Assembly: GCF_030814995.1 (NCBI RefSeq)
Contig: NZ_JAUSVX010000010.1
Location: forward strand, 186,001-250,000
Length of the DNA stretch: 64,000 nt
Reading direction: 5' to 3'
From: Labrys wisconsinensis
GTDB taxonomy: Bacteria > Pseudomonadota > Alphaproteobacteria > Rhizobiales > Labraceae
The notes beneath the pieces are model-generated. The model was not told the origin of the DNA and did no database searches. It saw nothing but the letters and a program-made list of their open reading frames with translations. The translations under genes and the position numbers were made by a program. Numbering within the stretch: position 1 is the first letter of the stretch; each line of letters starts with the position of its first letter. This document shows, piece after piece, positions 24,786 to 46,990 of the stretch.

Positions 24786-24788
24786 GCG

Positions 24789-26944: not shown

Positions 26945-26987
26945 GGGCGGCTTTCGCGGTGAGCCAAGCGTTCGACGTTCTCGGCTG

Positions 26988-27017: not shown

Positions 27018-27029
27018 CCGCCGCTGCGA

Positions 27030-27059: not shown

Positions 27060-27136
27060 CGTGCATGAATGCCTTGCTGGAGCATGCCCGATCCCGCGAC
27101 CGCTCATCCGCTCCGGCAGCGCAGCGAGGGGTGCGT

Positions 27137-28365: not shown

Positions 28366-28368
28366 ACG

Positions 28369-29250: not shown

Positions 29251-30074
29251 GCATGATCCCGCTCCTGGCGAGCCTCGCCGTCGCGCTCGCCGCGACCATG
29301 GCCACGGCCTGGCTCGTCGCGCTGCGCAGCGGCAATCACGGCTGGATCGACGTGATCTGGTCCTTCGCGGTCGGAGCCGGCGGCGTCGCGGCGGCCCTCG
29401 TCCCGGCCGGTCCGGCCACCTGGATGCCCCGGCAGCTCTTCGTCGCAGCGCTCGCAGCGGCATGGTCGCTGCGCCTCGGCGGCCATATCCTGCGCCGCAC
29501 GCTGGGCGGCGGGGACGACCCGCGCTATGCCCAGCTGAGGCGGGACTGGGGCGAGCGGGCGCCCGCCCGCCTGTTCTGGTTCCTGCAGATCCAGGCCGCC
29601 GCGGCCATCCTTCTGGTGCTCGCCATCGCGGCCGCGGCCCGCAACCCGCTGCCCGCCATCCGGGCCGGCGACCTCGTCGGCGCGGCGATCCTCGCCGCGG
29701 CCGTCGCGGGCGAGGCCGTCGCCGACCGCCAGCTGGCGCGGTTTCGCGCCGATCCCGCCAACCGCGGCCGCGTCTGCGACAGCGGCCTGTGGGGCGTGTC
29801 GCGCCACCCCAACTATGTCTTCGAGTGGCTCGCCTGGGTCGCCTACCCCGTGATCGCGATCGAGTCCGCGGGTGGCGGCTATCCCTTCGGCTTCCTCGCC
29901 CTGCTCGGCCCGCTCCTGATGTACGGACTGCTCGCGCACGCCTCCGGCATTCCGCCGACGGAGGCCCACATGCTGCGCTCGCGCGGCGATGCCTACCGCG
30001 CCTACCAGCGGCGGGTGAATGCCTTCTGGCCGGGCCCACCGCGGCGGCCGGCGAACGGAGCCGGAGACCCATGA
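29247..30074 (+). CDS. DUF1295 membrane protein, steroid 5-alpha-reductase-like
   Basis: A 275-residue polytopic membrane protein with about six hydrophobic segments. The DUF1295 hallmarks are GNHGWIDVIWSFAVG, WSLRLGGHILRR, ADRQLARFRADPANRGRVCDSGLWGVSRHPNYVFEWLAW, and the late LRSRGDAYRAYQRRVNAFWP. The family is related to 3-oxo-5-alpha-steroid 4-dehydrogenases and often accompanies Cfa homologues. It overlaps its neighbours by four bases on each side and is thus tightly coupled. A reductase role on a lipid double bond is inferred. Confidence 0.92.
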   Translation: MSMIPLLASLAVALAATMATAWLVALRSGNHGWIDVIWSFAVGAGGVAAALVPAGPATWMPRQLFVAALAAAWSLRLGGHILRRTLGGGDDPRYAQLRRDWGERAPARLFWFLQIQAAAAILLVLAIAAAARNPLPAIRAGDLVGAAILAAAVAGEAVADRQLARFRADPANRGRVCDSGLWGVSRHPNYVFEWLAWVAYPVIAIESAGGGYPFGFLALLGPLLMYGLLAHASGIPPTEAHMLRSRGDAYRAYQRRVNAFWPGPPRRPANGAGDP

Positions 30075-31129
30075 ACCTGATCGCCGCGGCCGGCCGCCTC
30101 GCCGAGCGCCTGCCACTGCCCGATGCCGTGACGCGATTGGGCATCGGCCTCCTCGTCGGCCGCACGGCGCGCAGCCTCGGGGCCGTGCCGGCCGGCGAGG
30201 AGAGCCGCTTCGCGCAGGCCATGGCCAGCCGGCCGGTGGCCGAGCACGCCGACCGCGCCAACGACCAGCACTATGCCCTGCCTCCTGCCTTCTTCGGCCT
30301 GATCCTCGGTCCGCGCCGCAAATATTCCTGCTGCCTCTACGAGCGCGAGAGCGACACGCTCGCGGACGCCGAGATGCGGGCCCTGGAGGAGACCGCCCGC
30401 CACGCCGATCTCGCCGATGGGCAGCATATCCTGGAGCTCGGCTGCGGCTGGGGCTCGCTGACCCTGTTCATGGCCGAGCGCTTCCCCGCTGCGAGCATCG
30501 TCGCGGTGTCGAACTCGCCGCTCCAGGGCCGCCACATCCAGGCGCAGGCGCGAGAGCGCGGCCTCGCCAACGTGACGGTCGTCACGGCCGACATGAACGT
30601 CTTCCGCCCCGACACCGTCTTCGAGCGCATCGTCTCGGTCGAGATGTTCGAGCACATGGCCAACTGGCCCATCCTGTTCGCCCGCGCCCGGTCCTGGCTG
30701 GCGCCGCAGGGGCGGATGTTCCTGCATGTCTTCACGCACCGATCCACGCCTTACCGCTTCGACGACGGCGACGAAGGCGACTGGATCGCCCGGCATTTCT
30801 TCACCGGCGGCATCATGCCGAGCGAGGGTCTGGCGCATCGCTTCGCCGACCAGTTCGCCGTCGAGGCGGAATGGCGCTGGAGCGGACGCCACTACCAGCG
30901 GACCGCGCTCGACTGGCTGGCCAATTTCGACGCCGGCCGGGCGGAGATCGACCGGCTGCTCGAGACGGTCTACGGCGCCGAGGCCGGGCTGTGGCGGCGG
31001 CGCTGGCGGCTGTTCTTCCTGGCGACCGCAGGCCTGTTCGGCCATCGGGCCGGCGAGGACTGGGGCGTCAGCCATTACCGGCTGCGCCCCGCGCCGGCCG
31101 CGGCCGCGGACGACCCGCTCAGCCGTTGA
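30071..31129 (+). CDS. Cfa-like SAM-dependent methyltransferase, second paralogue
   Basis: The 352-residue protein has SAM motif ILELGCGWGSLTLFMAERFP near residue 120, HYALPPAFFGLILGPRRKYSCCLYE, IVSVEMFEHMANWPILF and HFFTGGIMPSEGLAHRFADQF. It resembles the shorter Cfa-related group (about 350 residues, without the SCP2-like N-terminal domain) and differs clearly from the Cfa at 23556-24785. It is the last gene of the rpoE operon. The two enzymes could methylate different positions or substrates. It overlaps the convergent DUF2177 gene by 11 bases. Confidence 0.9.
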   Translation: MNLIAAAGRLAERLPLPDAVTRLGIGLLVGRTARSLGAVPAGEESRFAQAMASRPVAEHADRANDQHYALPPAFFGLILGPRRKYSCCLYERESDTLADAEMRALEETARHADLADGQHILELGCGWGSLTLFMAERFPAASIVAVSNSPLQGRHIQAQARERGLANVTVVTADMNVFRPDTVFERIVSVEMFEHMANWPILFARARSWLAPQGRMFLHVFTHRSTPYRFDDGDEGDWIARHFFTGGIMPSEGLAHRFADQFAVEAEWRWSGRHYQRTALDWLANFDAGRAEIDRLLETVYGAEAGLWRRRWRLFFLATAGLFGHRAGEDWGVSHYRLRPAPAAAADDPLSR

Positions 31130-31547
31130 GCCAGCCGACCGCGCGCTGCGCGACCAGCATGCCGGCCGTGGCCGCGATCGCGGTCAGCGCCGTGCCCCAG
31201 GCCATGTCGGCGACGGTGACGATCACCGGCCAGTCCCGCAGGGTGGCATGGTTGGTGAGGTCGTAGGTGCCGTAGGCGACGAGCCCGAACAGCGCGCCGA
31301 GCGCCAGCGCCGTGGTCCAGCGGCCGGAGGCGAGCGCGGGCTGGACCGCGAACACGACCACGCCGGCGATGTAGAGGGCATAGAACAGCACCGCGGGCGG
31401 CAGGTTCACCGTCTCCGCCAGCAGCGGGCCCAGCTTCGGCCGGTAGAGCGCGCCGGCCATCCGACTGAGCCAGAGGCCGTCGAGCGCGAGGAAGACGACG
31501 CCTGTCGCCACATAGCTCACGAGATAGGCCATCGTCGCTGCCTTCAT
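31119..31547 (-). CDS. DUF2177 membrane protein
   Basis: A 142-residue protein with four hydrophobic segments and the DUF2177 pattern: FLALDGLWLSRMAGALYRPKLGPL, LFYALYIAGVVVFAV and ALFGLVAYGTYDLTNHATLRDWP. Its function is unknown. It starts 19 bases downstream of a third TGATCC-N18-TA promoter, so it looks like a member of the same sigma regulon transcribed toward the rpoE operon. The 3' ends overlap, so antisense interference between the two transcripts is possible. Confidence 0.88.
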   Translation of the reverse strand: MKAATMAYLVSYVATGVVFLALDGLWLSRMAGALYRPKLGPLLAETVNLPPAVLFYALYIAGVVVFAVQPALASGRWTTALALGALFGLVAYGTYDLTNHATLRDWPVIVTVADMAWGTALTAIAATAGMLVAQRAVGWLNG

Positions 31548-34460: not shown

Positions 34461-34469
34461 CACCGCCCC

Positions 34470-34906
34470 TCACTCCATCGCCACGCTGTGATCCACTGCG
34501 GGCTTGCTCGCCGGCTTCCTCAGCAGCATCACCAGCGGCATCGCCACCAGCGACATCAGCATCGAGAGCTTGAAGTCGTCGATATAGGCGATGATCGTCG
34601 CCTGGGCCGTGATCAGGTTGTCGAGCGCGGCGCGGCCCGCGGCGGTGAAGGGGTCGAGGCTTTGCTGCACGGCCGTGGTGTCGAAGCCGCGGTTGAACGG
34701 CGTGACATAGGCGCCGATCGAGGCGTGGTTGACCTGGACGTTCTCGGTGAGCAGGGCCGAGACCACCGAGATGCCGACGCTGGAGCCGACATTGCGCGAG
34801 AGGTTGTAGAGGCCGGTGCCCTCGCCGCGCATCTGCGCCGGCAAGGTGGAGAAGGCGACCGTCGTCAGCGGCACAAGAGGAGGCCGAAGCCGGCGCCCTG
34901 GGCGAG
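34470..34906 (-). pseudogene. 5'-truncated, frameshifted copy of emrB
   Basis: This segment matches the last ~145 codons of the intact emrB at 43747-44184, same orientation, with scattered substitutions. It includes VPLTTVAFSTLPAQMRGEGTGLY and ends KPAVDHSVAME. The upstream part has a one-base deletion near 34873 (TTCGTGCCG in the intact copy, TTGTGCCG here), which breaks the frame. Similarity stops abruptly near 34906, where AT-rich DNA begins. It cannot make a transporter. It is the left member of the direct repeat that flanks the 34907-43746 islet. Confidence 0.85.
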
Positions 34907-34923
34907 AGTTTTTCATCGACAAA

Positions 34924-34968
34924 ATTATCAATAATCCTATTGACGAGAAAGGATCGTCGTCGCATTGT
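34924..34968 (+). promoter_or_regulatory. Possible promoter and operator of the islet transporter operon
   Basis: ATTAT-CA-ATAAT (34924-34935) is a 12-bp palindrome. Just after it TTGACG (34940-34945) and CATTGT (34963-34968) are 17 bases apart, a plausible -35/-10 pair for the binding-protein gene at 35030. The palindrome is a candidate site for the islet's own GntR regulator (41909-42628). Confidence 0.35.
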
Positions 34969-35029
34969 CCTCGGCAACGCCGCAGCCGGCCTCTCGACGC
35001 CCGGCAGAGAACGGCGCGAGGAGGAAATC

Positions 35030-36103
35030 ATGATCAATTCGACAATGCGGCGCCGTATCATCGGCAGGATGGCGACCGGGTTCATCGTCTTGAGCGGCAT
35101 CTCTTTCGGCAGCCTGCAGCCCGCTCTCGCCGAAGAGCCAATCACGATGGGTGCTTCGGTGCCGTATATGAACGACCCTGCTTGGGTTCGTATCGTCGAT
35201 TACGCCCAATACGTCGCCAAGATACTCGATATCAATCTCGTTGTTGTCGATGCCGCCGGCAAGGAAGACAAGCAGATCCAGGACGTACAGTCGTTGCTGT
35301 CGCGCGATGTGAAAGCCCTGATATTCGTCCCGGTCTCGGCGGCAAATGCCCCGGCCATCATTCGCCTCGCCGACCGCGCGAAGGTGCCGGCAATCGCGAC
35401 CGACCGATATCCCGGCTTTCCCGCCAACAACAAGGAATCGCCCTATCTGACCTTCGTCGGCCCCGACAATGTCGATGCGGGACGCAAGATTGCGCAATTC
35501 ATGATCGACCAGGGCGTCAAGAATTTCGTGGCCATCGGCGGCACGCCCGGCGATTCGAACAATCAGGAACGCTCCAAGGGAATGCGCGACGCGATCGCCG
35601 CCTCAGCCGACAAGGGCGTCAAGCTCCTGCAATATGTCGGCGTCCTTCAATCCGAGGACAACGGTTACGCGACGATGCAAAACCTCCTCTCGGCCCATCC
35701 GAGCGGAACCATCGACGGCGTCTGGTGCTATAACGACGCGCTCTGCGTCGGGGCTTACCGGGCGATCAAGCAGGCCGGACGGGACAAGGAGATCAAGATC
35801 GGCTCCATGGACCTCAATCCGCAGGCTCTCGATCTGATCAAGGACAAGACGAACTTCATCTATTCGATCGGCGGTCATTGGCTGATGCTCGGCTTTGCCG
35901 AGATGATCGCGTATGACTATGTGCACGGACATAAGCCTCTGTCCGACTTCTCACGCATTGAAGATGTCGGCGTCGACGCGGACGGATTCAGCAAATTCAA
36001 AGCCCAGTATATCGACTCGAACCCACCTTTCGATATCAAACACTATATGCTGACGTTCAATCCGGACACCAAGACACAGACCCCTCCCCTGACGCTCAAG
36101 TAA
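35030..36103 (+). CDS. CUT2 sugar ABC transporter substrate-binding protein
   Basis: A 357-residue periplasmic binding protein of the RbsB/peripla_BP_4 type. A signal peptide (GRMATGFIVLSGISFGSLQPALAEE) leads into MGASVPYMNDPAWVRIVDYAQY, then QDVQSLLSRDVKALIFVPVSA, TDRYPGFPANNKESPYLTFVGPDN and GVWCYNDALCVGAYRAI. Base composition here looks lower in GC than the flanking genes, in keeping with acquired DNA. ATG 35030 follows GAGGAAAT. It is first in the islet operon. The ligand is unknown. Confidence 0.9.
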   Translation: MINSTMRRRIIGRMATGFIVLSGISFGSLQPALAEEPITMGASVPYMNDPAWVRIVDYAQYVAKILDINLVVVDAAGKEDKQIQDVQSLLSRDVKALIFVPVSAANAPAIIRLADRAKVPAIATDRYPGFPANNKESPYLTFVGPDNVDAGRKIAQFMIDQGVKNFVAIGGTPGDSNNQERSKGMRDAIAASADKGVKLLQYVGVLQSEDNGYATMQNLLSAHPSGTIDGVWCYNDALCVGAYRAIKQAGRDKEIKIGSMDLNPQALDLIKDKTNFIYSIGGHWLMLGFAEMIAYDYVHGHKPLSDFSRIEDVGVDADGFSKFKAQYIDSNPPFDIKHYMLTFNPDTKTQTPPLTLK

Positions 36104-36122
36104 GCCGACGCAGGAAAACGCA

Positions 36123-36150
36123 GTCGAGAGATTGCTTGCGGTCTCTCGAC
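36123..36150 (+). promoter_or_regulatory. Intercistronic hairpin between binding protein and permease
   Basis: GTCGAGAGA (36123-36131) and TCTCTCGAC (36142-36150) form a perfect 9-bp stem with a 10-base loop and no T-tract. Such hairpins after binding-protein genes often stabilise the upstream message and so raise binding-protein over permease levels. Confidence 0.6.
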
Positions 36151-36177
36151 TTTGCAACAGCGCAATCCGGATCTTCA

Positions 36178-37173
36178 ATGTCCTCTCAGATCACTGCATC
36201 CTGGCGCCGTCGGCTCGAACTGGGGCGCTTCGCAACATCATTCCCGGGCATGGCGTCCGATATTCTCGGGCGCTATATCGCCTATGCCGCGCTGATCTTG
36301 CTCATCGTGTTTTTCGGACTGCTGGCGCCCTCGCTGTTTCTCACGCGAGGCAATTTCGAGACGATCCTGCAGAACAGCGCCGTGCAATGCGTGGTCGCGA
36401 TCGGGATGACATTCGTGATCCTCATCGGCAGCATCGATCTTTCGGTTGGATCGAACATGGCGCTGACCGCGACCCTTGCCGCCATGGCGAGCAACCAGAT
36501 CGGCAGCAGCGCCTTTTTCCTGACGCCGCTGATCGGCGCCCTCATCGGCCTGACCAACGCTCTCGTCTTCGTTCATGGTCGCATACCCTCGTTCGTGGTC
36601 ACGCTGGGCTCCTTGTCGGTTGCCCGCGGCCTGACGCTGATCATCAGCAACGGCACGCCGGTTCCGATCCCTTTCGACGGCCTCTTTTCCGACATCGGCA
36701 TCCCGCCGGTCCCGATTTTCATCGTGATCGGGCTGGCCCTGGTCGCCTCCTTCGTGCTGCTCAAGACGACCTTCGGCCGCTACACCTTTGCCATCGGCGG
36801 TGACGAGGACAAGGCCAGCATGCTCGGCCTGCCGGTCAATGGCGTGAAGATCGCCGTGTTCACCATGTCCGGTGCCCTGGCCGGCCTCGGCGGAGGCATC
36901 CTGGCCGCGGAGATCGGCTCGGGCAGCCCGACAATGGGGACAGGCTTTGAATTGACCGCCATCTCGGCGGTGGTGATCGGGGGCACCTCGCTGACGGGGG
37001 GGCGCGGCTCGATCCTCGGCACCATCGTCGGCAGCCTGGTCATGAGCACGCTCGCCAACGGCCTCATCATCCTGGGCATATCGACGGATGTGCAGACGGT
37101 CCTGACCGGCATCGTGCTGGTGGGCGCGGTCCTGCTCTCGATCCAGCGCGGCAAGATCAAAGTGATGAAATAG
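36178..37173 (+). CDS. CUT2 sugar ABC transporter permease (RbsC-like)
   Basis: The 331-residue permease has eight or more membrane segments. RbsC/BPD_transp_2 hallmarks: LFLTRGNFETILQNSAVQCVVAIGMTFVILIGSIDLSVGS, TLGSLSVARGLTLI, GRYTFAIGGDEDKASMLGLPVNGVKIAVFTMSGALAGLGG, and VVIGGTSLTGGRGSILGT. ATG 36178 was chosen. It follows the binding-protein gene after a hairpin and precedes the ATPase gene by 40 bases. Confidence 0.92.
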   Translation: MSSQITASWRRRLELGRFATSFPGMASDILGRYIAYAALILLIVFFGLLAPSLFLTRGNFETILQNSAVQCVVAIGMTFVILIGSIDLSVGSNMALTATLAAMASNQIGSSAFFLTPLIGALIGLTNALVFVHGRIPSFVVTLGSLSVARGLTLIISNGTPVPIPFDGLFSDIGIPPVPIFIVIGLALVASFVLLKTTFGRYTFAIGGDEDKASMLGLPVNGVKIAVFTMSGALAGLGGGILAAEIGSGSPTMGTGFELTAISAVVIGGTSLTGGRGSILGTIVGSLVMSTLANGLIILGISTDVQTVLTGIVLVGAVLLSIQRGKIKVMK

Positions 37174-37213
37174 CGCGAGCCTTCTTCTCCCCATCAAAAT
37201 CGGAATTGCCAAG

Positions 37214-38023
37214 ATGACGACCGCGGCAACTCAGGCACACAACGGCGCGAATGCGTGGAGCACGGCGAGGAACTCCACGCCCTTCCTGCAGATCCGAGGC
37301 CTTTGCAAGCAGTTCGGCGGCATTCAGGCGTTGCGCGATATCGATCTCGACATCTATCCCGGCGAGGTTCTCGGCCTGCTGGGAGACAATGGCGCCGGAA
37401 AGTCGACACTCATCAAGAGCATTTCGGGTGTCTACATACCGACTTCCGGCACGATGCAATGCGAAGGAAAATCCGTCTCGATCTCGTCTCCGAACGTCGC
37501 CCGTTCCCTCGGCATCGAGACGGTCTTTCAGGACCTCGCCCTGATCCCCAATCTGGATGCCGCCGCCAACCTGTTCATCGGCCGCGAGATCGGCTGGTTC
37601 AAGGGCCTCCTTCGCGTCATGAACCAGCGCGCGATGCTGGAGGACGTCAAGAAGACGCTGGACCAGCTCGACATCCATATTCCCTCGCTTCGCCTCGACG
37701 TGGAGGGCTTTTCAGGGGGCCAGAGGCAGGCCATCGCGATTGCCCGGGCGATACGCTGGAAGGCCAAGCTCGTCATTCTCGACGAGCCGACGGCAGCGCT
37801 CAGCGTTCCGGAACAACGCAAGGTCCTGGCCCTGACGCGCCAGCTGGCCTCCCAGGGCGTCGCGGTCATCTACATCACCCACAACATCCTCGACGTCATT
37901 GCCGTCACCGACCGCCTGGCCATCCTTCACCGGGGCCGGAAGGCAGCCGAGATCGCCACGAAAGACTGTGACGAGCACGAAATCGTCTCCCTCATCATGG
38001 GCAAGAGCAAGCCCTCGATCTGA
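37214..38023 (+). CDS. CUT2 sugar ABC transporter ATPase, single domain (FrcA-like)
   Basis: A 269-residue ATPase with one nucleotide-binding domain, unlike the two-domain RbsA type. Walker A is GDNGAGKST near residue 58, the signature FSGGQRQAI near 163, Walker B LVILDEPTAALS near 185, and the H-loop YITHN. Single-domain versions of this family, such as FrcA for fructose in Rhizobium, work as homodimers. It completes the islet transporter. Confidence 0.92.
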   Translation: MTTAATQAHNGANAWSTARNSTPFLQIRGLCKQFGGIQALRDIDLDIYPGEVLGLLGDNGAGKSTLIKSISGVYIPTSGTMQCEGKSVSISSPNVARSLGIETVFQDLALIPNLDAAANLFIGREIGWFKGLLRVMNQRAMLEDVKKTLDQLDIHIPSLRLDVEGFSGGQRQAIAIARAIRWKAKLVILDEPTAALSVPEQRKVLALTRQLASQGVAVIYITHNILDVIAVTDRLAILHRGRKAAEIATKDCDEHEIVSLIMGKSKPSI

Positions 38024-38062
38024 CGACGGCCCTGCCGCCGCGCGCCCTTTCGGAGAGAAGTC

Positions 38063-39310
38063 ATGACCGAATGCCCATCGCCAGCTTACGCCAGGAACAT
38101 GCGCCTGATCGGTTTCAGCGATCAGGGCGGCCGGCCGGATGGCAACCAGCTGATGGTGCATCGCGGCTATGCCTATGTCGGCCACATGTATTCGAAGGGA
38201 TTCAGCATCATCGATGTGCGCGATCCCAAGAATCCCCGCTTCGTCAGATATATGGAAGCCCCGCTCCACACCTGGAACATCCATCTCCAGGCGCACGACG
38301 ATCTGCTTCTGGTGGTCAATGGCCGTGACATGAAGGCCCTGCCTGCCTTCTCCGACGACAAGAGCTATTACAAGGCGAAATCATCGACCGCCTTCAACCT
38401 GGGAAGGGAGGATCGGACCTGGACCGCCGGCATGAGCGTCTGGGATCTGTCGAAGCCCGAGGAGCCGCGCCAGATCGGCTTCATGCCGGTGGAGGGCGTG
38501 GGTCTTCACCGGATCTGGTACGTCGGCGGACGCTGGGCCTACGCTTCGGCGCTGCTCGACGGCTTCAGCGACTACATCATGATCACCATCGACATGGCCG
38601 ATCCGACGAAGCCCGTCGAGACGGGGCGATTTTGGCTGCCCGGCATGAATCTGGCGGCCGGCGAGACGCCGGACTGGCCCTTGGAATTCGGGCGCTACGG
38701 GCTGCATCATCCCATCGTCCACGGCGACACGGCCTATTGCAGCTGGCGTGATGGCTGTCTTGCCGTCGTCGACGTCGCCGATCGGGCAAAGCCGCGGCTC
38801 ATCGCGCACAAGAGCTGGGCGCCTCCCTTCGGCGGCGGCACCCACAACGCCTTGCCACTGCCCGATCGCGACCTGCTCGTCGTTCTCGACGAGGCCGTGC
38901 TCGACCATCAGGAGGATGGCGACAAGCCGATCTGGCTGTTCGACATCCGCGAGCCTTCCAACCCGGTCAGCATCTCGACCTTTCCCTCGCCCAGGGACGC
39001 CGACTACAAGGCGAAGGGCGGCCATTTCGGGCCGCACAACATCCATGAGAACCGGCCGGGCTCCTTCGTCAGCTCGGACCTGATCTTCGCGACCTATCAG
39101 AATGCCGGACTGAGGGTCTTCGACATTCGCGACCAATATGCCCCTGTCGAGGTGGGAGCCCTCGTGCCCCCGCCGCCGCCCCGGATGATGGATGGAAAGT
39201 CGGGCCGGGACCCGGTGATTCAGATGTGCGACGTTTTCGTCGACAGCAATGGCCTGATCTTCACCACCGATCACCACGCAGGGCTCTGCATTGTCGAGTT
39301 CAACGGCTGA
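38063..39310 (+). CDS. LVIVD-repeat beta-propeller protein, histidine-rich
   Basis: A 415-residue cytoplasmic protein without signal peptide. It is built of repeated blades of the LVIVD type (YAYVGHMYSKGFSIIDVRDP, AYCSWRDGCLAVVDVADRAKP, GLRVFDIRDQYAP, GLIFTTDHHAGLCIVEF). Histidines recur at the blade edges: HTWNIHLQAHDD, GLHRIW, YGLHHPIVH, GGGTHN, GHFGPHNIHENR and TDHHAG. A ring of histidines at the centre of a propeller is how oligogalacturonate lyase, carotenoid oxygenases and methanethiol oxidase hold a metal, so an enzyme is plausible. It lies between the transporter and the catabolic enzymes of the islet. I know of no assigned reaction for this group. Confidence 0.8.
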   Translation: MTECPSPAYARNMRLIGFSDQGGRPDGNQLMVHRGYAYVGHMYSKGFSIIDVRDPKNPRFVRYMEAPLHTWNIHLQAHDDLLLVVNGRDMKALPAFSDDKSYYKAKSSTAFNLGREDRTWTAGMSVWDLSKPEEPRQIGFMPVEGVGLHRIWYVGGRWAYASALLDGFSDYIMITIDMADPTKPVETGRFWLPGMNLAAGETPDWPLEFGRYGLHHPIVHGDTAYCSWRDGCLAVVDVADRAKPRLIAHKSWAPPFGGGTHNALPLPDRDLLVVLDEAVLDHQEDGDKPIWLFDIREPSNPVSISTFPSPRDADYKAKGGHFGPHNIHENRPGSFVSSDLIFATYQNAGLRVFDIRDQYAPVEVGALVPPPPPRMMDGKSGRDPVIQMCDVFVDSNGLIFTTDHHAGLCIVEFNG

Positions 39311-39367
39311 TGCCGCTGGTTCTCACTCCATTCAACCAAAGCAGCGCCGCGCTGCGAGGACTGTGAA

Positions 39368-40135
39368 ATGCCGAAATTCTGCGCCAACCTCAAATGGCTC
39401 TTCACCGAGTTGCCATTCCTGGATCGGTTCGACGCCGCGGCGCGCGCCGGTTTTCAGGCCGTCGAATACGCCTCGCCTTACGAGTTCAGCGCCGCTGAAA
39501 TCCGCGGCCGATTGCGAGCCTGCGGCCTTCGCCAGGTGCTGTTCAACACGCCCGCCGGTGGCGGCTCCGGCATGGCGTGCGTCCCCGCGCGACGTGACGA
39601 GTTCCGGGACGGTGTGAGGAAGGCGCTGGACTACGCGGCGGACCTGGACTGCGGCCTGGTCCATCTGATGGCGGGCATCGTCCCCTCCGATCTCAGCCGC
39701 GACACGGCCGCGGCCGCCTATGCCGCCAACGTTGCCTGGGCTGCGGATCAGGCGGAGCCGGCCGGCGTGAGGCTGGTCCTCGAACCGATCAATCAGCGCG
39801 ACGTGCCCGGCTTCTTCCTCCGGACGCAGGAAGAGGGCGCGGCGGTTGTCGAGGCGATCGGGCGCGAGCGCATCGGCCTTCAGTTCGACATCTACCATTG
39901 CCAGGTGGCGCAGGGCGATGTGACGCGCCGGCTGGAGGCCCTGATGCCGGCAATCGCCCACATGCAGGTTGCCGACGTTCCCGGCCGCAACGAGCCGGGG
40001 ACGGGTGAGATTGCCTGGGACTATGTGTTTCGGCGGATCGATGAGCTGGGTTACGCGGGATGGGTCGGCTGTGAGTATCGCCCGGCGACGGAAACAAGCG
40101 CCGGTCTCGGCTGGCTGAAGCGCTTCTCGGCGTGA
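39368..40135 (+). CDS. Hydroxypyruvate isomerase-family protein (AP2Ec/TIM barrel)
   Basis: A 255-residue xylose-isomerase-like TIM barrel. Landmarks: FCANLKWLFTELPFLDRFDAAARAGFQAVEY at the N-terminus, VHLMAGIVP, VLEPINQRDVPGFFL, GLQFDIYHCQVAQGD, IAHMQVADVPGRNEPGTGEIAWDYVFRRI and VGCEYRP. The metal-binding Glu, Asp, His and Glu are in place. This matches Hyi and the 2-oxo-tetronate isomerase OtnI. It probably interconverts an aldose/ketose or 2-oxo sugar acid. It is cotranscribed with the hydratase 7 bases downstream. Confidence 0.88.
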   Translation: MPKFCANLKWLFTELPFLDRFDAAARAGFQAVEYASPYEFSAAEIRGRLRACGLRQVLFNTPAGGGSGMACVPARRDEFRDGVRKALDYAADLDCGLVHLMAGIVPSDLSRDTAAAAYAANVAWAADQAEPAGVRLVLEPINQRDVPGFFLRTQEEGAAVVEAIGRERIGLQFDIYHCQVAQGDVTRRLEALMPAIAHMQVADVPGRNEPGTGEIAWDYVFRRIDELGYAGWVGCEYRPATETSAGLGWLKRFSA

Positions 40136-40142
40136 GGGCCGC

Positions 40143-40913
40143 ATGATGGTGCTCGAACCCGTCGATCAAGCCGCCTCCGCCCTTCTGCAGGCCCGCCGAG
40201 CCCGTCGCTGGCTCCCTTCGCTGCCCGAAGCCTGCCGCCCGCGGTCCTTGCGGGACTCCTATGCCATTCAGGGCAAGGTTCTTGCCGAGCTCGGCCCTAT
40301 TGCAGCCTGGAAGGTCGGTGCGCCGAGGCCGGACGCGGAACCCGCTTGCGCCGCGATCGCAACGGCCACGACGTTCGAATCCGGAACCGTGATTCCCGCC
40401 GCCATGTTTCATATGCTCGGCATCGAGGCGGAGATCGCGTACCGGCTTTCGTCCGACCTGCCGCCACGCGATCGGGACTATGAGCCCGACGAGTTGATCG
40501 CGGCCATCGGCTCTATTCATCCGGTGATCGAGATCTCCGACACCCGTTTTGTCGAATGGGCCTCGCAGGATCGCTTCAGCCACGTCGCGGACCAGCTCAA
40601 TCACGGCGCGCTCATCGTCGGAGAGGGGCGCTCGGATTGGTGCGATGTCGCGGTGACGTCGCAGGAAACCATCCTGTCGATCAACGGCGAGACCAGCGCA
40701 GCGGTCGTGGGGGGCAACCCCGCCGGAGACCCGCTTCGTCTGCTCCTCTGGCTCGCCAATGTCGGCGCCCGCCCGTTCGGCGGGCTTCGGGCCGGGACGG
40801 TTGTGACGACAGGGTCGGTCACCGGAGTCGCATTCGTCACGGCGCCCGCGAAGGTCGCCGCACGGCTGCCCGGCATCGGGTCCGTCACGGCGACGATCGG
40901 AGAAGACCGATGA
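40143..40913 (+). CDS. 2-keto-4-pentenoate hydratase/FAH-like protein
   Basis: A 256-residue protein of the MhpD/decarboxylase hydratase group in the fumarylacetoacetate-hydrolase superfamily. It has AWKVGAPRPDAEPACA, an early conserved MLGIEAEIAYRL with the metal glutamates (EAE near residue 100), HPVIEISDTRF, and LLWLANVGARPFGGLRAGTVVTTGSVTG near the C-terminus. Such enzymes add water to, or decarboxylate, 2-keto-enoic acids. The start is ATG 40143 or the adjacent 40146. Its stop overlaps the dehydrogenase start. Confidence 0.87.
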   Translation: MMVLEPVDQAASALLQARRARRWLPSLPEACRPRSLRDSYAIQGKVLAELGPIAAWKVGAPRPDAEPACAAIATATTFESGTVIPAAMFHMLGIEAEIAYRLSSDLPPRDRDYEPDELIAAIGSIHPVIEISDTRFVEWASQDRFSHVADQLNHGALIVGEGRSDWCDVAVTSQETILSINGETSAAVVGGNPAGDPLRLLLWLANVGARPFGGLRAGTVVTTGSVTGVAFVTAPAKVAARLPGIGSVTATIGEDR

Positions 40914-41860
40914 CCCCGGATGCCTCCGCCGCGAAACCCGGGCTTCTGCTGCTGGACCGCTTCAACCAGACCACCGAGAACCGATTCGCCGAGAGCTTCG
41001 ACGTCCATAGGTCCTATGAACCGGGGTTCTCCCTTGAAAAATATGCCGCGGACATCGTTGCGATTGCGACCTCGGGCGCCAAGGGCGCGCCGAATGAGGT
41101 CGTCGAGCATCTTCCCCGGCTTCGGATCGTGTCGATCCGCGGCGTGGGTACCGATGCCGTCGACCTCCAATTGACCCATCGCCACGGGATCGTGGTCACG
41201 ACGACGCCGAACCTCCTCACCGATGATGTCGCAGATCTCGCGCTCGCACTCCTCCTGGCCTGTGCCAGGCGTCTCTGCCAGGCGGACCGTTTCGTCCGCG
41301 CGGGAGGCTGGAAGCCGGGTTCCGCGCTGCCGCTCGGGCGAAAGGTGACGGGAATGCGCGTCGGGATCGTCGGGTTGGGCCGGGTCGGCCGAGCGATCGC
41401 GAGGCGCCTCGAGGCCTTCCGCGCAACGATCCGCTACAGCGACATCCAGGCGTTCGAGGATGTGCCCTACGCGTTCGCCCCGACGGTGCTGGCCTTGGCG
41501 CAGGGCTGCGATGCGCTGATTCTGGCGGCCTCCGGTGGCCCGGCGTCGTTCCGCATCGTCGACAGGGCGGTGCTGGGGGCCCTGGGACCGCAGGGCCTGC
41601 TGATCAACGTCGCTCGCGGCAGTCTCGTCGATGAGCAGGCCCTGGTCGAAGCCCTGGTCGAGCACCGGCTCGGCGGCGCCGGGCTGGACGTTTTCGTTGA
41701 CGAGCCGAACGTTCCTTCTGCCCTGTTGGGGCTCGATCGGGTCGTCCTCCAGCCTCACCGGGCCAGCGCCACGGAGGATACACGGCAGGCGATGGAGACC
41801 CTTGTGCTCGACAACCTGTTGGCGCATTTCGCCGGCGAGCCACTGGTCGGCGTGGTGTGA
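40910..41860 (+). CDS. D-2-hydroxyacid dehydrogenase (glyoxylate/hydroxypyruvate reductase-like)
   Basis: A 316-residue NAD(P)-dependent dehydrogenase. The substrate loop is IRGVGTDAVDL, with NLLTDDVADLALALLLA; the cofactor motif is GIVGLGRVGRAIARRL near residue 148; the active-site Arg is in NVARGSLVDEQAL, Glu in VDEPNVPSAL and His in VLQPHRASATEDT. This is the glyoxylate/hydroxypyruvate reductase B subgroup, distinct from the dehydrogenase at 3525-4574. Coupled to the hydratase by ATGA, it would reduce or oxidise a hydroxyacid in the islet pathway. Confidence 0.9.
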   Translation: MTPDASAAKPGLLLLDRFNQTTENRFAESFDVHRSYEPGFSLEKYAADIVAIATSGAKGAPNEVVEHLPRLRIVSIRGVGTDAVDLQLTHRHGIVVTTTPNLLTDDVADLALALLLACARRLCQADRFVRAGGWKPGSALPLGRKVTGMRVGIVGLGRVGRAIARRLEAFRATIRYSDIQAFEDVPYAFAPTVLALAQGCDALILAASGGPASFRIVDRAVLGALGPQGLLINVARGSLVDEQALVEALVEHRLGGAGLDVFVDEPNVPSALLGLDRVVLQPHRASATEDTRQAMETLVLDNLLAHFAGEPLVGVV

Positions 41861-41908
41861 TCCATGCAGGAGAGACCGGCAGGCACACAAGGCATTCGTG
41901 GGAGCGGA

Positions 41909-42628
41909 ATGGTATCGGCAGCTCGGGCTCAAGATGAAGGCAGTTCGGCGAACCGCAAGGACAGCGACATGCTCAACCCTGTCGTTGCGTCGCTTGAACA
42001 GGATATCGTGCTTGGACGTCTTCACCCTCGCGAGAGGCTGGTGGAAGACGATCTCATGCGCCGCTTCTCGGTGAAAAGGCACGTGATCCGCCAGGCGTTG
42101 GCGGATCTCGAGCAGATGGGCGTGGTCGATCGCATCCCCAATCGCGGTGCCATGGTTCGCGTCTATGCCGCCGAGGATATCCAGCAGCTCTATGTGGTGC
42201 GCGATCTCCTCGAGACCCAGGCCGCCAGCCTCGTGCCGATGCCGATGGACAAGGCCGATCTCGATGATCTCAAGGCCATCCAGGCCGTGCACGACCAGGC
42301 GGTCGCCCATGGAGATCTCGGCCTCGTCTTCCGCTCCAACGTCGAGTTCCACGAACATCTGTTCGCCAAGACCGGCAATCGCTACCTCGCCGAGGCCATC
42401 AAGCAGTTCGCGCTGCGAACGCATGGCATCCGCTTCTATTGCCTGACCTATCCCGGCTATCTCGAGCAGTCCCGCCGGGAGCACTGGCTGATGATCGAGG
42501 CCATCGAGGGCCGCGACAGGGCGACGCTCGTGAGGCTGTGCAGCCAGCACCTGCTCGCTTCGCGGCTCTGTTACGAGAAGGCGGCCGGCCTGCGCGTCGC
42601 CACCGAGGTGCCCGTCGATGCGCGTTGA
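41909..42628 (+). CDS. GntR-family regulator with FCD domain
   Basis: A 239-residue regulator: winged helix LEQDIVLGRLHPRERLVEDDLMRRFSVKRHVIRQALADLEQMGVVDRIPNRGAMVRV, then an FCD domain (VVRDLLETQAASLVP, FRSNVEFHEHLFAKTGN, SRREHWLMIEAIEGRD). ATG 41909 has GGGAGCGG upstream; ATG 41864 would add 15 residues. Embedded in the islet operon, it is the natural local regulator of the transporter and enzymes, and may bind the palindrome at 34924-34935. Confidence 0.88.
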   Translation: MVSAARAQDEGSSANRKDSDMLNPVVASLEQDIVLGRLHPRERLVEDDLMRRFSVKRHVIRQALADLEQMGVVDRIPNRGAMVRVYAAEDIQQLYVVRDLLETQAASLVPMPMDKADLDDLKAIQAVHDQAVAHGDLGLVFRSNVEFHEHLFAKTGNRYLAEAIKQFALRTHGIRFYCLTYPGYLEQSRREHWLMIEAIEGRDRATLVRLCSQHLLASRLCYEKAAGLRVATEVPVDAR

Positions 42629-42727
42629 AACGTGCCGAATCCCGCAAGTCGGGCTCGCCGGATGTTGTCCCGGCGGCCTGGCAAGCCCTTCCGGAAATCG
42701 CCGCAAGTCCCACAGCGAAAGCCGATC

Positions 42728-43408
42728 ATGACACGAATAGCGTTGATCCACGCCGTGCAGGCCGCCGTGCAGCCTATCGAGGATGCCTTCAAGGCCTATT
42801 GGCCGGAGGCCAGGCGCACCAATCTTCTCGACGACTCCTTGACGCGCGACCGCGAGATCGCCGGAGACCTGACCCCGGAACTTTCGCAACGGATGGTCGG
42901 TCTCGCCTCCTATGTGGCAGGAACGGGCGCGGATGGGATCCTGTTCACCTGTTCCGCCTTCGGCAAAGGTATCGAAGCCGCCGCCCGCGCTCTGCCGATC
43001 CCCGTTCTCAAGCCGAACGAGGCCATGTTCGATGCTGCGCTCGATGTCGGCGGCCGCATCGGCATGCTGGCGACGTTCGAGCCAGCCGTGGCTTCAATGG
43101 AGGAGGAGTTTCATGAGCTCACACGCCAGCGAGGATCGGACGCGACGATCGAAACCCTGGTGGTGCCGGGCGCACGCCGCGCTCTCATGGCGAATGACCT
43201 CCTGGAGCATGACCGCCTGATCGCCAATGCTGCCCCGGCCCTGCATCATTGCAGCGCGATCATGCTGGCGCATTTTTCCATGGCCTCGGCCGAGAAGGCC
43301 GTCGCCGCGAATTCAGACCGCATCGTTCTGTCTGCGCCAAGGAGCGCAATCGAGAAGCTCAAGTCCGCGTTGGGGCAAGCACACAGAGAGGAGCTCGGAG
43401 ACACATGA
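42728..43408 (+). CDS. Aspartate/glutamate racemase-family protein
   Basis: A 226-residue protein of the Asp/Glu/hydantoin racemase superfamily. The two cysteine-like positions of the fold are occupied by Cys in DGILFTCSAFGKGI (about residue 78) and by His-His-Cys in LHHCSAIMLAHFSMASA (about 180), so at least one catalytic cysteine is present. Superfamily members include maleate isomerase and AroM-like proteins. In this islet it more probably isomerises a hydroxy or dicarboxylic acid than an amino acid. Its stop overlaps the ABM gene start. Confidence 0.82.
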   Translation: MTRIALIHAVQAAVQPIEDAFKAYWPEARRTNLLDDSLTRDREIAGDLTPELSQRMVGLASYVAGTGADGILFTCSAFGKGIEAAARALPIPVLKPNEAMFDAALDVGGRIGMLATFEPAVASMEEEFHELTRQRGSDATIETLVVPGARRALMANDLLEHDRLIANAAPALHHCSAIMLAHFSMASAEKAVAANSDRIVLSAPRSAIEKLKSALGQAHREELGDT

Positions 43409-43722
43409 TCCATGTCATCGCCACCATCACGGCCAAGCCCGGCCACCGCGATGCGGTTCTTGCCCATTTCCGCGCGAACATGCCGGCTGTGCGGGCTGAA
43501 AAGGGATGTATCGAGTACACGCCCGTTGTCGATGTCGCGAACGGTGGCTCCAGCCAGACAGCGCTCGGGCCCGATACATTCATGGTCATCGAAAAGTGGC
43601 AGACGATCGACGATCTCGCCGCGCACGCGGCATCGAGCCATATGGCGGCCTATGCGGCCAAGGTCAAAGATCTGCTCGCCGCGCGCACGATCCGCGTTCT
43701 GACGGCCGCCGTCGAAGCGTGA
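43405..43722 (+). CDS. ABM-fold protein (putative quinol monooxygenase/isomerase-like)
   Basis: A 105-residue dimeric alpha/beta-barrel protein: MIHVIATITAKPGHRDAVLAHF, RAEKGCIEYTPVVD, FMVIEKWQTIDDLAAHAASSHMAAYAAKV and a final strand. The YgiN/LsrG-like pattern (KPGxxxAV, EKGCIEY, ExWxxxxxLxxHxxSxH) is complete. It is the last gene of the islet, coupled to the racemase-like gene. As in the cluster at 2369-4574, an ABM-fold gene accompanies a 2-hydroxyacid dehydrogenase and a GntR regulator, which favours an isomerase or mutarotase role. Confidence 0.85.
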   Translation: MIHVIATITAKPGHRDAVLAHFRANMPAVRAEKGCIEYTPVVDVANGGSSQTALGPDTFMVIEKWQTIDDLAAHAASSHMAAYAAKVKDLLAARTIRVLTAAVEA

Positions 43723-43746
43723 AAGAGGCGGCCGCCGCCCGGCCAC

Positions 43747-44184
43747 TCACTCCATCGCCACGCTGTGATCCACCGCCGGCTTGGCCTGGGGCTTCCTCAG
43801 CAGCATCACCAGCGGCATCGCCACCAGCGACATCAGCATCAAGAGCTTGAAGTCGTCGATATAGGCGATGATCGTCGCCTGCGCCGTGATCAGGCTGTCG
43901 AGCGCGGCGCGGCCGGCGGCGGTAAGGGGGTCGAGGCTGTGCTGCACGGCCGTGGTGTCGAAGCCGCGGTTGAACGGCGTGACATAGGCGCCGATCGAGG
44001 CGTGGTTGACCTGGACGTTCTCGGTGAGCAGGGCCGAGACCACCGAGATGCCGACGCTGGAGCCGACATTGCGCGAGAGGTTGTAGAGGCCGGTGCCCTC
44101 GCCGCGCATCTGCGCCGGCAAGGTGGAGAAGGCGACCGTCGTCAGCGGCACGAACAGGAAGCCGAGGCCGGCGCCCTGGACGAA
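43747..44184 (-). repeat. Right copy of the direct repeat flanking the catabolic islet
   Basis: The 3' 438 bases of emrB are repeated at 34470-34906 (437 bases, one deletion) in the same orientation. Similarity begins at the stop codon on one side and ends inside the gene on the other. The repeats bracket 34907-43746. No integrase or short att-like core was found. Confidence 0.85.
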
Positions 44185-45294
44185 GCCGACGGAGACGATG
44201 GTCCATTCCGAGACGTCGGGGGTCCAGCCGGTCATGTCGTACATGGCCCAGGCGGTGAGGCCGAGGCCGGCCGCGAGCAGCACGCGTGTGTCGACCTTGC
44301 CGATCAGCCGGCCGACGATGAACATGCACACCATCGTGCCCATGCCGCGCGGACCCATGACGATGCCGGCGGTCATCACGGGATAGCCCATCAGCGTCTG
44401 CAGATAGGGCGTCATCAGCGCCAGCGAGGCGAGATAGGTGACGCCGACGACGAAGATGAAGAACATGCTCACCGCGAAGTTGCGGTCGAGGAACAGGCGC
44501 GGATTGACGAAGGAGCGCTCGGCCGTGAAGGTGTGCGCCAGGAAGAGGTAGAAGGCGCTGGCCGCCACCAGCGCCTCGATCTGCACCTCCGCCGAGGAGA
44601 GCCAGTCGAGCTGCTCGCCGCGGTCGAGGAAGAGCTGCAGGCCGGCGATGGCGATCGAGAGCATGCCGAAGCCGAACCAGTCGAGCCGGGCCTGCGAATC
44701 CGCCTTCGTCTCCGTCACGAAGGTGACGATGCCGAGGAAGGCGACGAGGCCGATCGGCACGTTGATGTAGAACACCCAGCGCCAGGAGATGTTCTCGGTC
44801 AGCCAGCCGCCGATCACCGGCCCGAGCACCGGGCCAACCATCACGGAGACGCCGAACAGCGCCATGGCCGAGCCGCGCTCCTCCGGCGTGTAGATGTCGA
44901 GCAGGATGCCCTGGGAGAGCGGCACCAGCGAGGCGCCGAACACGCCCTGCAGCAGGCGGAAGCCGACGATCTGGGGCAGCGACTGCGCCAGGCCGCACAG
45001 CACCGAGGCGACGACGAAGCCGGCGATGGCGACGAGCAGCACGTTCTTGCGCCCGAACCGGGCGGCGAGGAAGCCGGAGGGCGGCGTCATGATCGCCGCG
45101 GCGACGATGTAGGAGGTCAGCACCCAGTTGATCTGGTCGGCGCTGGCCGAGACGCTGCCCTGGATATAGGGCAGCGCCACGTTGGCGATGGTGGTGTCCA
45201 GCGCCTGCATGATCACCGCCAGGATGACGCAGGCGGTGATGGCGCCGCGATTGGCGACCGGAGAGGCCGCCGGCTGGGCTACGGCGTTACTCAT
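43747..45294 (-). CDS. emrB: DHA2-family multidrug efflux MFS transporter, EmrB-like
   Basis: A 515-residue, 14-helix drug:H+ antiporter. Motifs: LDTTIANVALPYIQGS in helix 1, PSGFLAARFGRKNVLL (motif A), RLLQGVFGASLVPLSQ (motif B) and GPVLGPVIGGWLTENISWRWVFYINVPIG (motif C) with the family-specific tail. The start overlaps the emrA stop by eight bases. Together with EmrA and an outer-membrane channel encoded elsewhere, it would export hydrophobic drugs. The last ~145 codons are duplicated at 34470-34906. Confidence 0.95.
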   Translation of the reverse strand: MSNAVAQPAASPVANRGAITACVILAVIMQALDTTIANVALPYIQGSVSASADQINWVLTSYIVAAAIMTPPSGFLAARFGRKNVLLVAIAGFVVASVLCGLAQSLPQIVGFRLLQGVFGASLVPLSQGILLDIYTPEERGSAMALFGVSVMVGPVLGPVIGGWLTENISWRWVFYINVPIGLVAFLGIVTFVTETKADSQARLDWFGFGMLSIAIAGLQLFLDRGEQLDWLSSAEVQIEALVAASAFYLFLAHTFTAERSFVNPRLFLDRNFAVSMFFIFVVGVTYLASLALMTPYLQTLMGYPVMTAGIVMGPRGMGTMVCMFIVGRLIGKVDTRVLLAAGLGLTAWAMYDMTGWTPDVSEWTIVSVGFVQGAGLGFLFVPLTTVAFSTLPAQMRGEGTGLYNLSRNVGSSVGISVVSALLTENVQVNHASIGAYVTPFNRGFDTTAVQHSLDPLTAAGRAALDSLITAQATIIAYIDDFKLLMLMSLVAMPLVMLLRKPQAKPAVDHSVAME

Positions 45295-46516
45295 GGTCCT
45301 TGCCGCCGGGGAAGCGGCCGAAGAGGTTGGTGACGAAGTCCGGCAGGCCGCGGGCATGGCCGGTGTCGATATCGGCCGTGACGCTCATGCCGACGCGCAG
45401 CGGCGGCCTGCCGGCCATGTCGTCGATGCTGATGCGCATCGGGATGCGCTGCACCACCTTCACCCAGTTGCCGGAGGTGTTCTGCGCCGGCAGGAGCGAG
45501 AAGCTGGAGCCCGAGGCCGGACTGATGCTGGCGACCTTGCCCTTCCATTCGACGCCGGGATAGGTGTCGACGGTGATGGTCACGGGCTGGCCGGGCCGGA
45601 CATAGGTGAGCTCGGTCTCCTTCGGCATGGCCGAGATCCAGACATTGCTGGTCGAGACCAGCGAGAAGCCGGGCTGCGAGGCCTGCAGGTAGGAGCCGAC
45701 CTGCAGCGAGGAGACGTTGGTGACGATGCCGTCGAAGGGCGCGCGCACGATGGTGTCGTTGAGGTCGCGCTGGGCGGCGTCGACCCCGGCCTGGGCCTGG
45801 AGGTAGAACGGGTTCTGCTCCACCGTCTGGTTCGGGTCGTTGCCGAGCTGAGCCAGCATGGCCTGGGCCGCGGCCTTGGCCACCGCCACCTTCTGCAGGC
45901 CGGCGTCGAGGTCGTGCTTGGCCGAGTCGTAGGCGGCGCGCGAGGCGGCGGCGCTGGAGGCGAGGTCCTGCTGGCGCTTGAACTGGGTCTGGTAGAAGGG
46001 AATGTCGGCCTCGGCCTGGGCGATCTGGGCCACGGCCTGGTCGTAGCTCGCCTTCAGGGTCAGCACCTGGTTGCGCACCGTGCCGAGCTGCGCCTGCGCC
46101 CCGGCGAGCGCGATGCGGAAGGACTCGCCCTTCAGCCGGAACAGCACCTGCCCCTTCTTGACCACCTCGTTGTCGTGCACCTCGATCGAGGAGACGATGC
46201 CGGAGACGTCGGTGGAGACGCCGACCATGTCCGCCCGGACATAGGCGTTGTCGGTCGACATCACCTGCCCGCCGGTCACGTAGTAGTAGCCGCCGACGAC
46301 GAGCGCCACCGGCAGCAGCGCGAACAGGAACGGGCGCAGGCGGCTGCGGCGCGGCTTGGCGGGAGCGGGCGGGGCCTGCGGCGGAGCGACGGCGGGCGCG
46401 GGGGCGGAAGGCGCCGGAGCCTTGTCGTCGCGACGCAGCTCGGCGACACCAGCGGCCTGCGCCGTGCCGGCGTCGGTCTCGGGGGTGGCGCGCAGGGGGG
46501 AGGAACCGTCAGCCAT
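45287..46516 (-). CDS. emrA: HlyD/EmrA-type membrane fusion protein
   Basis: A 409-residue periplasmic adaptor. A Pro/Ala-rich cytoplasmic N-terminus (about 55 residues) precedes one membrane anchor (FLFALLPVALVVGGYYYVTGG). The split biotinyl-lipoyl domain (VSTDVSGIVSSIEVHDNEVVKKGQVLFRL and IVRAPFDGIVTNVSSLQVGSYL) encloses an alpha-helical coiled-coil hairpin (about 130-250). A beta-barrel domain follows (GNWVKVVQRIPMRISID). It lies between marR and emrB with overlaps on both sides. Confidence 0.93.
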   Translation of the reverse strand: MADGSSPLRATPETDAGTAQAAGVAELRRDDKAPAPSAPAPAVAPPQAPPAPAKPRRSRLRPFLFALLPVALVVGGYYYVTGGQVMSTDNAYVRADMVGVSTDVSGIVSSIEVHDNEVVKKGQVLFRLKGESFRIALAGAQAQLGTVRNQVLTLKASYDQAVAQIAQAEADIPFYQTQFKRQQDLASSAAASRAAYDSAKHDLDAGLQKVAVAKAAAQAMLAQLGNDPNQTVEQNPFYLQAQAGVDAAQRDLNDTIVRAPFDGIVTNVSSLQVGSYLQASQPGFSLVSTSNVWISAMPKETELTYVRPGQPVTITVDTYPGVEWKGKVASISPASGSSFSLLPAQNTSGNWVKVVQRIPMRISIDDMAGRPPLRVGMSVTADIDTGHARGLPDFVTNLFGRFPGGKDHE

Positions 46517-46973
46517 GGCTTGCCTTCCTGTCTTCGACCGGCGTACGGCAGGCGTCGATCAGGTTCGTCTTCATGAGGGTGAGCGTCTTGAACAGATGCT
46601 CGCGGTCTTCGTCGGCGACGCCGGCGAGGGCTTCGGCACGGCTGACGTCGCCGATGGCGCGCATCTGGGTCATCAGCGGCAGCGCCGCGTCGCGCAGATA
46701 GAGCTGCCAGATGCGGCGGTCGGTCGGATGCTGGCGGCGCTCGATCAGGCCGCGCTCCTCCAGCTTGTCGAGGATGCGCACCAGGGTGATGCCCTCGATC
46801 TCCAGGATCTCGGCGAGGCCCCCCTGGTGGATGCCTTCGTTGTTGGCGAGGTAGGCCAGCGTCTGCCACTGCGAGCGGGTCAGCCCCAGGCCCCGGGCGC
46901 GCTGCTCGAACCGCTTGCGCAGGAGCCGCGCGACATCATGCAGCAGGAAGCCGAGGGTGGGCGTGTTGTTCAT
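46509..46973 (-). CDS. MarR-family transcriptional regulator
   Basis: A 154-residue repressor: LLHDVARLLRKRFEQRARGLGLTRSQWQTLAYLANNEGIHQGGLAEIL, then the winged-helix recognition part ITLVRILDKLEERGLIERRQHPTDRRIWQLYL with the DxR wing. ATG 46973 is called; a preceding TTG is in frame but less likely. It is first in the marR-emrA-emrB operon and should bind the palindrome 18 bases upstream, releasing it when a phenolic or drug ligand is present. Confidence 0.92.
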   Translation of the reverse strand: MNNTPTLGFLLHDVARLLRKRFEQRARGLGLTRSQWQTLAYLANNEGIHQGGLAEILEIEGITLVRILDKLEERGLIERRQHPTDRRIWQLYLRDAALPLMTQMRAIGDVSRAEALAGVADEDREHLFKTLTLMKTNLIDACRTPVEDRKASHG

Positions 46974-46990
46974 CAAAGAGAAGCCTGCTA

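Follow-up and report, generated by a model that had tools for sequence, protein, structure and literature searches.

Introduction

Campbell-type integration of a circle leaves a readable scar, in which a direct repeat of the shared segment surrounds the incoming DNA, with one copy of the repeated gene intact and the other truncated. Here we describe a scar of this anatomy in a 64,000-nucleotide stretch of the genome of Labrys wisconsinensis (contig NZ_JAUSVX010000010.1, positions 186,001 to 250,000; hereafter the window), where an islet of ten genes, 8.84 kb long and entirely on the plus strand, lies between an intact emrB-type efflux pump gene and a second, truncated copy of the emrB 3' end. 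In contrast to the Campbell-type case, no circle or replication gene is in evidence. The explanation that we favour, with moderate confidence, is that a foreign catabolic operon with its own emrB tail was acquired by recombination within emrB. The kind of event is most likely one that is already known, met here in an uncommonly readable form.

In homology-facilitated illegitimate recombination (HFIR), incoming DNA is joined through one homologous and one illegitimate end, which places new genes beside a conserved anchor. Such integration is described, in the part of PMC3240628 that was available, for three naturally competent species and for low-frequency Escherichia coli conjugation; the available part of PMC5361080 proposes it for module displacement in Vibrio cholerae and terms it quite rare. 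Transformation is also able to generate duplications through unequal exchange (PMC3784515). The present locus differs in that the shared segment is present twice, over 442 alignment columns, and in that the event is read from its scar and was not observed. The sequential displacement of type VI secretion effector–immunity modules in V. cholerae, as given in the same part of PMC5361080, likewise uses a conserved stretch as its anchor and keeps the old downstream DNA beyond the new; it concerns effector and immunity genes in variable clusters of many strains, whereas here a catabolic operon is seen in one case, with no series of remnants. A further parallel is the e14 element in icd, in which, according to the sections available of PMC11148124 and PMC6379469, the incoming tail keeps the gene intact and the displaced tail is found on the far side. 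That element is a site-specific prophage, in contrast with the islet, for which no integrase was found and whose flanking repeat contains an identical tract of 212 bp.

The 3' end of emrB is present twice

The two copies of the emrB tail have the same orientation and align, by blastn and by pairwise alignment, over 442 columns, 422 of them identical (95.5%), with one gap and a score of 704 bits (Table 1). A preliminary description of this stretch, made from the letters alone, had reported a 437-base, 5'-truncated and frameshifted copy of the 3' end of emrB, which the alignment bears out; the breakpoint mapping that it proposed places the limits of homology 5 bp past the emrB stop codon on one side and at codon 392 on the other. 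The left copy lacks the 5' part of the gene and has lost one base at codon 402, about 31 bp from the cut end. The remainder, codon 403 to the stop, keeps the reading frame, with no premature stop and no frameshift. The islet is thus bracketed by direct repeats of shared homology, with one gene copy whole and the other cut short, as after Campbell-type integration.

No third copy was found in the organism's own genome (8.93 Mb in 55 contigs), in a search in which 40 of 385 first-look candidates were scored; those listed are both copies and two short, weak matches. In a screen for repeat pairs of at least 150 bp and at least 85% identity, the emrB tails form the only pair in the window, and 400 kb of other stretches of the same genome yielded one pair, which is inverted. 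Given these results, the repeat is neither a chance similarity nor a common repeat.

Mosaic structure of the repeat

The differences between the copies are unevenly placed, a feature absent from the preliminary description. At the truncated 5' side a ragged tract of the left copy carries four substitutions and one deletion relative to 32 bp of emrB; then follow 212 bp without any difference, and the 3' tract has 14 substitutions in the 193 bp up to the stop and one more past it. To judge these patterns we used related emrB genes from 85 loci, namely 80 named loci, the best of at least 593 confirmed, and five others. Site counts rest on 62 of them, after 22 more distant loci (L131–L152) and L051, which lies on the same contig as L092, were left out; one misaligned gene (L119) was kept in the site counts and identity ranks and dropped from the trees.

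The middle tract is not unusually conserved, since the 62 genes differ from the window gene by 22.7% on average in this tract and by 27.9% in the 3' tract. None of the 18 substitutions falls in the 212 bp, which has a probability of 2e-5 given the variability weights of the relatives; the tract borders were picked after the data had been seen. The longest-run simulation is independent of these borders, and a difference-free run of at least 211 arose in none of 20,000 weighted simulations.

In the 3' tract, the base of the left copy is present in at least 5 of the 62 related genes at 13 of the 14 sites, compared with 31% for random substitutions under a null that weights every base change equally. 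The exception is codon 506, which is invariant in 62 of 62 relatives. A hand estimate puts the chance of 13 of 14 at roughly 2% for the case that just half of the changes arose in an unselected left copy. With these natural-looking bases and its open frame from codon 403, the left tail looks like a second functional natural allele rather than a decaying duplicate. This character is compatible with alleles of two strains as well as with two functional paralogs of one genome.

The ragged tract behaves otherwise: the deletion and one substitution occur in none of the 62 relatives, two substitutions in 2 and one in 23. A pattern search for it with three mismatches in five genomes matched only itself. 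Two candidate sources were rejected. A 27-base match on contig C4 (93%, E 7e-4) lies in surroundings without EmrB homology, and three DHA2 paralogs of the same genome have other residues at the positions in question.

The pump gene seems to have a composite history

The emrA and marR genes are linked to emrB in all four congeners compared, and the first 600 nt of emrB group, in unrooted trees, with a clade of 12 that contains all four (support 87). The last 1008 nt group instead with five Phyllobacterium-type genes (support 97), leaving the congeners outside. The cut at 600 nt was picked after the similarity profile had been seen; over seven segments of the gene, identity to congener locus L050 ranks 4th, 2nd, 11th, 46th, 6th, 23rd and 53rd of 62. 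It seems, from these affinities, that emrB swapped its 3' part at an earlier time and that the gene is open to recombination. In a tree of the shared part, the left and right copies are sisters with support 100, both of the Phyllobacterium-like 3' type. The resident tail is therefore not ancestral.

The emrB locus in other genomes

The genus comparison comprised five genomes, that of L. wisconsinensis included, the congeners being 72–79% identical in EmrB. Within the stretches fetched around emrB, none of the four congeners has islet genes, and the same is true of the RraA, aminotransferase and Lrp genes of the left flank. Their emrB is followed by a convergent GH15 gene with a GH3 gene beyond it, directly in two and after about 3.3 kb in the other two. 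In L. wisconsinensis this divergent GH15/GH3 pair lies away from emrB, on contig C16 (L210, 5325–11109). Window positions 23036–31547 contain nine open reading frames (ORFs) with matches in the same order in congener G004, among them a cyclopropane-fatty-acid-synthase-type gene; the block lies there at 6.11 Mb, and emrB at 1.08 Mb. This collinearity ends at about 31.55 kb, to the left of the Lrp, aminotransferase and RraA genes, and marks a second breakpoint. The comparison of the emrA–emrB locus that had been proposed earlier is thus neither refuting nor decisive: the congeners lack the islet at emrB, but they lack the left-flank genes as well. From the Phyllobacterium-like type of both tails, and from congeners with neither islet nor left-flank genes on the 3' side, it follows that the region changed more than once.

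The islet cluster was found at none of the 85 emrB loci. Some homolog of an islet or left-flank gene is present at 6 of the 85, and 5 of the 80 further loci hold one type of islet-gene homolog (queries other than the ATPase, aminotransferase, MarR and EmrA). A second near-identical emrB copy or end occurs at 0 of 85; the extra emrB homologs at 15 loci are distant paralogs of 24.5–29% identity, four of them with short nucleotide matches of 68–70%. Among the loci compared, the islet is at emrB in L. wisconsinensis only.

Searches with single islet genes gave a similar picture. At E 1e-100 or better, the periplasmic substrate-binding protein (SBP) is found in 2 of 397 genomes sampled from the order and 2 of 398 from the phylum, L. 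wisconsinensis included in both. The two other SBP genomes do not hold the same islet, the proteins being 51–53% identical and the genes differently ordered (SBP, permease, Gfo/Idh-type ORF, ATPase); an SBP paralog on contig C4 of L. wisconsinensis was rejected likewise for its gene order. The LVIVD-repeat protein is common, occurring at E 1e-30 in 57 of the 397 order genomes (L. wisconsinensis included). Fifteen of its loci were fetched (L159–L173, proteins of 60–67% identity): 13 have an ABC ATPase or permease homolog, 9 of them a sugar-type permease, and the gene order of the islet occurs at none of the 15. Among plasmid records, 676 match some part of the islet, none covers 80% of a 7994-base islet stretch, and none has an SBP match at 1e-60.

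Base composition

The profile of GC and codon use that had been suggested sets the islet, at 63.4% GC, apart from flanks of 69.7% and 69.6%. The first islet gene, encoding the SBP, is the lowest at 57.4%, in line with the earlier impression of a lower GC in that gene. The GC content of third codon positions (GC3) is 0.745–0.855 in the ten islet genes and 0.857–0.952 in the seven flank genes measured, so that all ten lie below all seven, narrowly at the edge. Windows of equal size with a GC content as low as that of the islet number 4 of 192 on contig C1, 0 of 92 on C3, 33 of 92 on C5 and 0 of 12 to the left of the window. Of 194 windows sampled for tetranucleotide use, 20 deviate as much as the islet or more, and 18 of these belong to C5. 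Although distinct from its surroundings, the islet is thus similar in composition to contig C5. On that contig, 100 kb sampled has 63.9% GC, compared with 70% on C1 and C3, and three of the nine integrase matches of the genome lie there; the contig may represent a replicon of its own or a region rich in islands.

Origin of the arrangement

The mosaic and the allele-like left tail point to two diverged alleles that exchanged DNA, and they speak against simple local duplication with decay. In the course of events that we favour, an operon beside its own emrB tail would have arrived on foreign DNA and, within the high-identity tract, recombined with the emrB already resident, probably by homologous, RecA-type exchange, on one side. 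The other side would have been closed by an illegitimate joint at 34905/34906, the incoming DNA being a circle or else a linear piece joined end-on; a similar joint could arise from a linear donor that had homology at one end and was joined illegitimately at the other. The pump gene would have stayed intact, ending now in the incoming tail (the right copy), and the resident tail would have been displaced together with the resident downstream DNA (the left copy). The repeat with its mosaic, the genes and the contrast in composition are observed; which way the exchange went, that RecA took part, in what form the DNA arrived and which tail was resident are read from the scar. The lower GC of the islet, its absence from the other emrB loci compared, the lack of a tyrosine integrase on the window's contig and the signs of an earlier exchange in emrB also count in favour of this account.

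The preliminary description had favoured Campbell-type, homologous integration of a circle. Homologous exchange is in keeping with the intact gene, the displaced tail and the mosaic; the circle, however, is not required, no free form or donor was seen, and an empty site, with a single emrB end and no islet, was not seen among the four congeners. This and several further points weigh against the explanation that we favour. The emrB of the congeners is followed by the GH15 and GH3 genes and by neither the islet nor the RraA and aminotransferase genes; as these left-flank genes are missing there, the supposedly resident side has itself been rearranged. The composition contrast is not unique, given the many windows of contig C5 that are equally low in GC. 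Sister tails of one Phyllobacterium-like type would also be expected from local duplication. The ragged 31 bp are altered at positions conserved among the relatives, which a clean exchange does not explain, and the end of homology 5 bp past the stop is a coincidence not predicted for two ordinary alleles. Finally, joining of this kind, homologous at one end and illegitimate at the other, is rare, at 3e-10 per recipient in E. coli conjugation, according to the part of PMC3240628 at hand.

A purely local history is possible, although we consider it clearly less probable: emrB or emrAB would have been duplicated, the functional copies would have diverged, conversion would have homogenised the 212 bp, and the left copy would have been cut short by a deletion or when the islet arrived. 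The sisterhood of the copies, and their sharing of a type unlike that of the congeners, help this account; natural-looking differences would also be expected between two functional paralogs of long standing, and conversion between the repeats would yield an identical tract. The account nevertheless requires duplication, long maintenance, conversion and truncation, and a near-identical second emrB is found at none of the 85 relative loci, where only distant paralogs occur. In its simple form, duplication followed by decay should leave even, random differences; the tract without any of the 18 substitutions and the 13 natural bases of 14 argue against it. Segmental shuffling, in which larger rearrangements of a plastic region placed the islet and the remnant beside emrB, the repeat marking a join of unrelated blocks, we regard as quite improbable. 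It is consistent with the block collinear with G004, lying far from emrAB in that genome, and with the GH15/GH3 pair now on contig C16, but by itself it leaves the two-allele mosaic unexplained.

It is also conceivable, if unlikely, that the islet is what remains of a site-specific integrative element, or a satellite of one, that targets the emrB tail and makes the gene whole again with a tail it carries; the integrase would have been lost or would act from elsewhere. The anatomy of e14 in icd is of this kind, with the displaced tail on the far side and the gene kept whole by the tail borne on the element, as here, if the right tail did arrive with the islet; the end of homology just past the emrB stop would also fit. 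The claim that the repeat is far too long for an att core is a weak one, because repeat length alone is no bar to site-specific integration: e14 duplicates 165 bp (54 codons) of icd with 12 exchanges, as reported in the available part of PMC11148124, compared with 14 in 193 bp (64 codons) here. Against such an element, the ten islet proteins include no recombinase, and the genome's nine tyrosine integrase matches (PF00589) are all on contigs other than C10, which holds the window; the preliminary description saw no integrase either; serine recombinases and transposases were not searched genome-wide, nor was every window gene scanned. The diverged tracts lie 212 bp apart with no short core between them from which the differences would start, although later gene conversion could mask a core, and neither an islet-like cluster nor a second emrB end was found at the 85 loci. 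An assembly artefact, in which the identical tract served to fuse a free circle, or DNA of a second strain, with the chromosome, is scarcely credible. The identical tract would be a possible place for a mis-join in an assembly of 55 contigs with 4.91% estimated contamination; yet the copies differ on both sides of it, and the four congeners also have 4–9%, so that such values may be typical of the genus. Moreover, a circle of 9 kb that lacks replication genes is unlikely to be maintained.

If the acquisition by recombination within emrB is correct, the locus is a readable record of a possible integrase-free operon gain in an alphaproteobacterium, preserving two tail alleles, an exchange tract and one illegitimate joint. 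On its own this one case changes little. Should sister strains confirm it, split gene tails could offer a means of spotting integrase-free acquisitions that island finders miss. A more far-reaching and very doubtful idea is that of an exchangeable islet, free of an integrase and dependent on RecA, which leaves and returns by using the emrB tails as long attachment sites. Each excision or insertion would then swap the last 64 codons of the pump between natural variants that differ at six residues, and the tails of pump genes would be ports at which catabolic operons dock; the older Phyllobacterium-like exchange in emrB would be in keeping with this idea.

Genes and leader of the islet

The features of the locus are listed in Table 1. 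The islet had been described as a complete catabolic set. A transporter, enzymes and a GntR regulator are indeed present, but no kinase or aldolase that would close a pathway, so that "complete" goes too far. The nearest plasmid homolog of the racemase-fold protein (56%) adjoins otnK and otnC, a hint, and only that, of C4 sugar acids as substrates. The last islet gene ends 24 bp from the emrB stop, to which it is convergent.

The DNA just inside the left junction is AT-rich, as had been noted earlier, and this leader is probably a promoter/operator, judging from its inverted repeat and hexamer. Three homologous SBP genes were compared by eye: TTGACG precedes two of them and TTGACC the third; a consensus promoter scan of the leader found none.

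Table 1. Features of the emrB locus and the islet (window coordinates)
Feature	Position	Strand	Evidence
Left copy: displaced emrB 3' end, codon 392 to 5 bp past stop	34465..34905	-	blastn and pairwise alignment
3'-side tract of left copy	34465..34662	-	alignment
Identical tract	34663..34874	-	alignment; likely exchange or conversion tract
5'-side ragged tract of left copy	34875..34905	-	differences mostly at positions conserved in relatives
AT-rich leader, 6-4-6 inverted repeat (TCAATA-N4-TATTGA) and TTGACG hexamer	34906..35029	+	read from sequence
Periplasmic sugar-type substrate-binding protein (SBP)	35030..36103	+	Pfam PF13407
ABC permease (BPD_transp_2), start codon unsettled	36184..37173	+	Pfam PF02653
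ABC ATPase, single domain, 269 aa	37214..38023	+	Pfam PF00005
LVIVD-repeat protein	38063..39310	+	Pfam PF08309; homologs in the order
2-oxo-tetronate isomerase (OtnI type)	39368..40135	+	NF043033, 334.4 bits (cut-off 325)
FAH-fold hydrolase/hydratase	40143..40913	+	Pfam PF01557
D-2-hydroxyacid dehydrogenase	40910..41860	+	Pfam PF02826, PF00389
GntR/FCD regulator	41864..42628	+	Pfam PF00392, PF07729
Asp/Glu racemase-fold protein	42632..43408	+	Pfam PF01177
ABM-domain protein, last islet gene, convergent to emrB	43405..43722	+	Pfam PF03992
Right copy: 3' end of intact emrB	43742..44183	-	blastn and pairwise alignment
Intact emrB-type DHA2 efflux permease, 536 aa	43747..45357	-	TIGR00711, 407.8 bits (above cut-off 230.2)
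emrA-type adaptor	45287..46516	-	TIGR00998, 242.4 bits (below cut-off 390.8)
MarR regulator	46509..46976	-	Pfam MarR

The ABC ATPase has one ABC domain, and the sugar-transporter models that match it best are about 500 aa long. Elsewhere in the window, self-comparison shows imperfect inverted repeats at 56830–57008 (82%) and 54165–54297 (73%).

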